44,349 bases of DNA from Brevinema andersonii (GTDB taxonomy: Bacteria; Spirochaetota; Brevinematia; Brevinematales; Brevinemataceae): contig NZ_FOKY01000007.1 of the NCBI RefSeq assembly GCF_900112165.1, positions 1 to 44,349 of the forward strand. Reading direction: 5' to 3'. The notes under the pieces were generated by a model that did no database searches, was not told the DNA's origin, and saw only the letters and a program-made list of their open reading frames with translations. Made by a program: the position numbers and the translations under genes. Positions 1 through 19,900 of this stretch are shown piece after piece (the first letter of the stretch is position 1; each line of letters starts with the position of its first letter).

Positions 1-51
1 CTAGAAAAGCAAGATGTTTTTATATTTAAGAATGAGTAGTTTAAGAAAAAA

Positions 52-80
52 TTGACTCCTTTTTAATTTTGATTTATAAT
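52..80 (+). promoter_or_regulatory. Sigma-70-type promoter of the structured RNA
   Basis: A TTGACT -35 box (52-57) and a perfect TATAAT -10 box (75-80) are 17 bp apart. The predicted start of transcription is near 86-87, exactly where the first strand of a 14-nt long-range helix begins. It is one of the best promoter matches in the window and has no reading frame downstream, so it most likely drives the RNA ending at the terminator near 362. Confidence 0.8.
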
Positions 81-85
81 AATCA

Positions 86-362
86 TGCAACATCTTAGCT
101 GACAAGATGCTTATCCGGTTTCTGGATTTTTAGTAGACAGCATTTCCGTACCCCTATTATTAGTATAGCAGCCTGCAGAGGCTCGTACGTTTCTGGGCGG
201 TGCGATAATTTTGCCATATAGCCAAGATGTTGCAGCGTGCGGCTCTGCAGGTTTTTCTATCCCAGGCAAGCGCGCTGGCAAATTGGCACTATCTCAGGTT
301 ATTTGGGGCAAACTTCTAGAGAACAACGTGCAGTAGTCCTAGATTATTGTACGTTGTTTTTT
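86..362 (+). ncRNA. Structured, pseudoknotted small RNA of unknown family
   Basis: There is no plausible reading frame here. The stretch lies between a near-consensus promoter and a hairpin with a U-tract. Helices I can pair by eye: P1, 87-100 with 220-233 (13 of 14 pairs); P2, 105-111 with 139-145, capped by ATCC/GGAT (113-116/124-127); P3, 172-180 with 243-251 (nine pairs) extended by 184-189 with 236-241. The 3' strand of P1 lies inside the loop of P3, so P1 and P3 form a pseudoknot. Landmarks of RNase P RNA, tmRNA, SRP RNA and 6S RNA were looked for and not seen. High, steady expression is likely from the promoter and the tRNA genes that follow. Function unknown. Confidence 0.7.
323..362 (+). 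terminator. Intrinsic terminator of the structured RNA
   Basis: A 13-pair stem (323-335 with 345-357, including two G-U pairs) is followed by a run of six T. It closes the RNA unit and separates it from the tRNA promoter at 403. Confidence 0.8.
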
Positions 363-402
363 AAGACATTAAACAATAAGGAAAAAATACCAAAGAAAAA
401 TA

Positions 403-19772: not shown

Positions 19773-19808
19773 TGAAATACAGGGAGCTGAGCAGACTTTT
19801 ATCGAAAA

Positions 19809-19897
19809 GAAATACTCCCTACGCCAGTATGAACTGGATCAGGTTATATCGGTCGCCGAAATATCGGCCTCTCAGCAAAATGCTCCCGAGTATTTCA
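19809..19897 (-). promoter_or_regulatory. TPP riboswitch (THI element)
   Basis: The minus strand carries the conserved TPP aptamer core in order: CTGAGA, then ACCTGATC, then GGCGTAGGGA. A closing P1 stem pairs ACTC with GAGT, with further AT pairs. A promoter (TTGCAT at 19925-19930, TATAAT at 19901-19906, 18 bp spacer) would start transcription almost exactly at P1. TPP binding is expected to shut off the downstream transporter. The aptamer ends about 37 nt before the start codon. CTCCCTG (19780-19786) between them can pair with TAGGGAG of the aptamer. Confidence 0.95.
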
Positions 19898-19900
19898 AGT

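Follow-up and report, generated by a model that had tools for sequence, protein, structure and literature searches.

A Brevinemataceae-specific family of promoter-driven RNAs that combine long-range helices with a pseudoknot

Results

A structured, promoter-driven RNA upstream of a tRNA cluster

The window, that is, the whole stretch of 44,349 nucleotides analyzed here, is the entire contig C7 in a draft genome of 1.5 Mb (G000). On its + strand, TTGACT (52-57) and TATAAT (75-80) separated by 17 nt form a near-consensus sigma-70 promoter (52-80) that matches 11 of 12 consensus positions, in agreement with the initial annotation, which had called it near-perfect. The promoter is followed by a conserved RNA of ~170 nt (86-256, + strand), which covariance models R1/R2 match at 10 loci of the genome. 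As had also been claimed, the region is devoid of a sizeable reading frame, there being no ORF of more than 59 amino acids on the + strand between 52 and 362. Folding of this region yielded a minimum free energy of -97.9 for the + strand compared with a mean of -76.9 for shuffled sequences (z = -4.2); the fold stability of the - strand reached a z of only -0.9.

Each copy of the RNA carries a helix P1 linking its 5' end to a position near its 3' end, an inner helix P3 and a pseudoknot helix, and then a U-run. The strands of P1 are the very 5' end and the segment just before the 3' strand of the pseudoknot; in the window they occupy 86-96 and 224-234 (+ strand; 86/87-96 with 224-233/234). P1 begins 6-7 nt past the -10 box, so that the first helix does lie at the predicted transcript start, as the initial annotation had it, and none of 1000 shuffled sequences gave a 5'-anchored helix as long as this one. 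P3 pairs 147-152 with 199-204 (+ strand), being longer in paralogs, and the pseudoknot pairs 172-189 with 236-251 (+ strand), joining the P3 loop to the tail beyond P1 so that its strands cross P1. Alternatively, the 5' strand of the pseudoknot could fold into a local hairpin, P4 (GCC..GGC). A U-run (252-256, + strand) that adjoins the 3' end of the pseudoknot is the proposed terminator of the RNA, and it is found at the same place in nearly all copies. Another local hairpin, at 113-127, was flagged by the terminator scan and is not conserved among the paralogs.

Searching the window region against the covariance models of Rfam 15 gave no match at the gathering threshold nor any beyond chance at E<=10, and at the gathering threshold none was obtained for seven paralogs or eight Brevinema loci either. 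We thus found no Rfam family for the RNA; by eye, the initial annotation had seen no match to the usual housekeeping RNAs. It is not the tmRNA, since RF00023 has no match at the RNA and the tmRNA of the genome lies elsewhere, on contig C30. The same contig as the RNA does carry a TPP riboswitch (19799-19899, - strand, 71.7 bits).

The tRNA cluster downstream is unrelated to the RNA and has a promoter to itself (403-431); between the two, a second terminator hairpin, of 22 bp with a U-run (317-363, + strand), is seen in the MFE fold. The initial annotation had extended the RNA, with a terminator, to 362; comparison of the copies places the hairpin in a stretch (257-363) confined to two near-identical copies, and the conserved RNA stops at the U-run at 252-256. 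The cluster, of six tRNAs, is conserved in three relatives, where other genes and its own promoter lie directly upstream and the RNA is absent; the suggestion of the initial annotation to look there for homologs therefore failed, and the homologs lie elsewhere in the genomes of the relatives. Given that the tRNA cluster has its own promoter, that a second terminator intervenes and that the cluster of the relatives lacks the RNA, we infer from the sequence that the window copy is a free-standing transcript. A connection with the tRNA cluster or with proline, raised by a copy on contig C4 that precedes proS and by the window copy preceding tRNA-Pro, was rejected because the neighbors of the other copies are unrelated and the cluster occurs without the RNA in relatives. 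Directly after the tRNA cluster, a gene for a PTH2-type peptidyl-tRNA hydrolase is found (1055-1420, + strand); the best-known enzymes of this type are archaeal and eukaryotic.

Paralogs in the window genome

The genome has two copies of the first 366 bases of the window (1-366, + strand) that differ by a single SNP (A102G); copy A runs from contig C23 into the window and copy B from C3 into C18. With two near-identical copies having different flanks, to the left on C23 and C3 and to the right on C7 and C18, the assembly broke at this repeat. A divergent, shorter relative on C4 keeps 31 of 31 pairs of the window copy, 10 of which vary, five of them on both sides (in P1 and the pseudoknot). A covariance model built from these two sequences detected further loci in the window genome only, among 18 genomes of its class, and an improved model yielded ten confident loci, namely the A/B pair, C4, C27, C28, three on C1 and two side by side on C8; an eleventh, on C20, is probable. 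All ten confident loci carry, just upstream of P1, a promoter matching 10-12 of 12 consensus positions with a spacer of exactly 17 nt. They are followed by genes of various kinds (tRNA genes, proS, one of the flagellar motor switch and others for membrane proteins), and the downstream gene is convergent at the C27 copy, at the prophage copy and at C1a. The prophage copy (L045, on C28) lies antisense between two tail genes of a 9-kb contig that encodes tape measure and baseplate proteins; with 49% G+C, compared with ~33% for the genome, this contig may have been acquired recently or may be a contaminant from binning.

Covariation supports P1, P3 and the pseudoknot

Alignment of eight paralogs revealed that all 10 modelled pairs of P1 exhibit double changes, with 97.5% paired, and that 4 of 6 pairs of P3, a helix of 6-12 bp, do so too. 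Since P1 and P3 guided the alignment, the counts for these helices lean towards the structure; the count for the pseudoknot, which was scored on an alignment from a model lacking it, is unaffected and gave 96.5% of cells paired, double changes in 9 of 15 pairs and no equal among 500 shuffles. Furthermore, a plain helix search of single sequences recovers P1 and P3 too, finding helices of 8-12 bp at the P3 position in most paralogs. The sequence of P1 differs in nearly every copy while its complementarity is kept, with very few G-U pairs. In one of the two C8 copies (C8a) a mismatch interrupts P1, and the shuffle test, which demands a contiguous helix, fails for this copy because of it. The Brevinema RNAs are longer (~260-300 nt), with up to 17-18 perfect pairs in P1, and the 5' strand of their P3 can instead form a local hairpin that covaries as well, indicating that competing folds are built in. 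Compensatory change maintained over the long term in all helices indicates selection on the RNA. Together, the comparisons bear out the initial annotation both in the compensatory changes that it had suggested looking for and in its pseudoknot, and they support its structured, promoter-driven, pseudoknotted RNA of no known family. We regard it as almost certain that the RNA, with its pseudoknot, is real and unclassified.

The family is confined to Brevinemataceae

With models R2 and R3 we obtained matches in all four Brevinemataceae genomes and nowhere else among 393 Spirochaetota genomes, the two together giving ~28 loci in G003, 15 in G002, 2 in G001 and 10-11 in the window genome. One model match on G003 contig C86 is false, being inside an ORF. 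Scanning 84,980 species genomes with sequence patterns returned two uncultured Brevinema MAGs and two chance matches, the latter in Oscillospiraceae, within coding DNA and with no model match. Pattern matches in viral contigs likewise fell by chance inside coding genes, more specific two-arm patterns returning none, and a blastn match to a Klebsiella phage proved to be an unrelated terminator. The RNA at 86-256 is thus a member of a promoter-driven family specific to the Brevinemataceae, which are host-associated spirochaetes, with a P1/P3/pseudoknot fold ending in a U-run. The family was previously uncatalogued and has unusually strong comparative support; our literature search found no paper on Brevinema small RNAs.

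Brevinema copies usually precede genes for exported proteins

To the Brevinema loci, the window genome being left out, we applied a simple rule of hydrophobicity and lipobox for export, the genomes being fragmented MAGs. By this rule, 18 of 24 downstream genes on the same strand encode exported proteins, compared with 7 of 32 upstream neighbors (p=1e-4) and 16 of 61 other genes (p=6e-5). The exported products belong to several unrelated families and comprise lipoproteins, outer-membrane proteins and secreted GmrSD_C/HNH nucleases. The RNA's own promoter matches 11-12 of 12 positions at 36 of 40 Brevinema loci, whereas a promoter of at least 10/12 is found in only 4 of 24 gaps between RNA and gene, compared with 30 of 64 regions upstream of other genes. 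The shortest of these gaps measure only 50-77 nt and therefore leave little room for another promoter. Between the RNA and a lipoprotein gene, the linker is nearly identical in two Brevinema species although the proteins have diverged. Several gaps contain a second, ordinary terminator. Counting the copies of the window genome too, the downstream gene is convergent or absent at between about one quarter and one third of all copies.

Some further features of these flanks were observed. At L084, L161 and L105 a ~70-nt linker 3' of the RNA contains a hairpin (GGGGCATGCTCTCGTACTATAAAAAGTATGGAGGGCTGTATTTAT) and is almost identical between Brevinema species. Five related genes for exported HNH (GmrSD_C-type) nucleases each lie 3' of a copy of the RNA (L157, L160, L150, L152 and L098), and at two of these loci, L157 and L160, the likely ribosome-binding site lies within a hairpin that resembles a terminator. 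Another dispersed intergenic repeat of Brevinema (TTTTTAGAGATATAGGAGCGAAAGCGACTAATAGCTCTTA) often occurs 3' of the RNA, as in the flanks of L098, L151 and L093.

Discussion

The sequence data lead us to favor, tentatively, a family that acts in cis as a 5' leader, an attenuator whose terminator is the pseudoknot, for genes of exported proteins. RNA polymerase would start at the strong promoter, and the first structures to form would be the local hairpin P4 and, in Brevinema, that of the P3 5' strand as well. As the 3' strands emerge, these hairpins would be displaced by P3, next by P1 and last by the long pseudoknot helix, which with the U-run immediately after it would end transcription. Where this cascade fails or is blocked, transcription would read through into the downstream gene, in Brevinema usually one that encodes an exported lipoprotein, an outer-membrane protein or a secreted HNH nuclease and lacks a strong promoter of its own. 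The P1 sequence private to each copy could allow copies to be switched one by one. We favor such a leader because of the covarying helices and competing hairpin, the strong promoters of the RNA, the bias towards exported genes of several unrelated families, the promoter-poor gaps, some as short as 50-77 nt, and the conserved linker; the convergent neighbors, the second terminators and the mixed neighbors in the window genome weaken it.

A family of free-standing, trans-acting small RNAs, in which each copy would be its own gene and the exported neighbors would only reflect variable regions, is a possible but less probable explanation. Each copy does possess its own promoter and terminator, copy B and others have a second terminator, downstream genes are convergent or absent at roughly one in four to one in three loci, the position at the tRNA cluster is not conserved, and the window and prophage copies stand alone. 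Against this reading, exported genes are enriched on the downstream same-strand side only, and those genes lack strong promoters. Moreover, no conserved single-stranded seed was identified, and no canonical Hfq (PF17209) was found in the four genomes, though a divergent Hfq could be missed. The variation in copy number from 2 to ~28 among close relatives at locations that are not conserved, together with the recent 366-bp duplication differing by one SNP, could also point to a selfish or mobile RNA element spreading between intergenic sites and carried by prophages; the copies in a prophage tail region and beside integrase-like genes show how it could spread. We consider such an element decidedly unlikely, as beyond the one duplicated pair the copies share no ends, target-site duplication or flanking sequence, no reverse transcriptase was found, the bias in orientation and in the type of gene downstream is strong and compensatory change has been sustained in all helices.

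The second terminators might be accommodated if the RNA were a cis-acting element of processive antitermination (as EAR, put and ops/RfaH are) that enabled polymerase to pass them before surface genes. EAR and put are structured leader RNAs of surface-related operons, and the RNA resembles them in its apparent place at the transcript start of surface genes, with ordinary terminators in several of the gaps that follow. It differs from them in its terminator-like end, the U-run directly after the pseudoknot being what a terminator would have, and it matches EAR and similar elements of Rfam neither in sequence nor by model. A specialized NusG paralog (EAR/LoaP/RfaH-type) was not found either, with one NusG per genome and none seen in G003, a test that covers systems other than RNA-only ones. 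We consider antitermination very improbable.

The preferred leader with a pseudoknot terminator resembles attenuators and terminator riboswitches in its position in Brevinema, in its competing helices and in a last helix that is richer in G+C and leads into a U-run. It differs in that the terminating helix is a pseudoknot, with strands ~45-65 nt apart that cross P1, and in that it has no known ligand family and is absent from Rfam. In Borrelia burgdorferi, which is also a spirochaete, 3' ends of RNAs lying upstream of mRNAs were proposed to mark regulatory elements (PMC10319736), a premature termination in 5' UTRs that resembles the arrangement suggested here. The RNA described here has no homolog outside the Brevinemataceae among the 393 Spirochaetota genomes. 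In pairing its 5' strand with one close to the 3' end, and in its length, the RNA recalls the msr-msd RNA of retrons. A retron ncRNA was ruled out, as no protein in any of the four genomes (G000-G003) matches the retron reverse transcriptase domain PF00078 (RVT_1).

If the leader reading is true, exported proteins of Brevinema, a group of poorly studied host-associated spirochaetes, would share a common RNA control, and the family would illustrate how a terminator can consist of a long-range pseudoknot. A regulon spanning the genus, in which dozens of unrelated surface and secreted genes carry the same leader with its pseudoknot terminator, each with a private P1, and are switched individually through their RNA, is an unlikely extension. 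With ~28 natural variants, a single genome offers ready material for structure-function tests. In that genome, G003, pseudoknot cores also occur in tandem, three in L147 (1884-2255, on C9) and two in L148 (303-549, on C105); the cores are ~110-120 nt apart, and promoter and P1 are present at the first core only.
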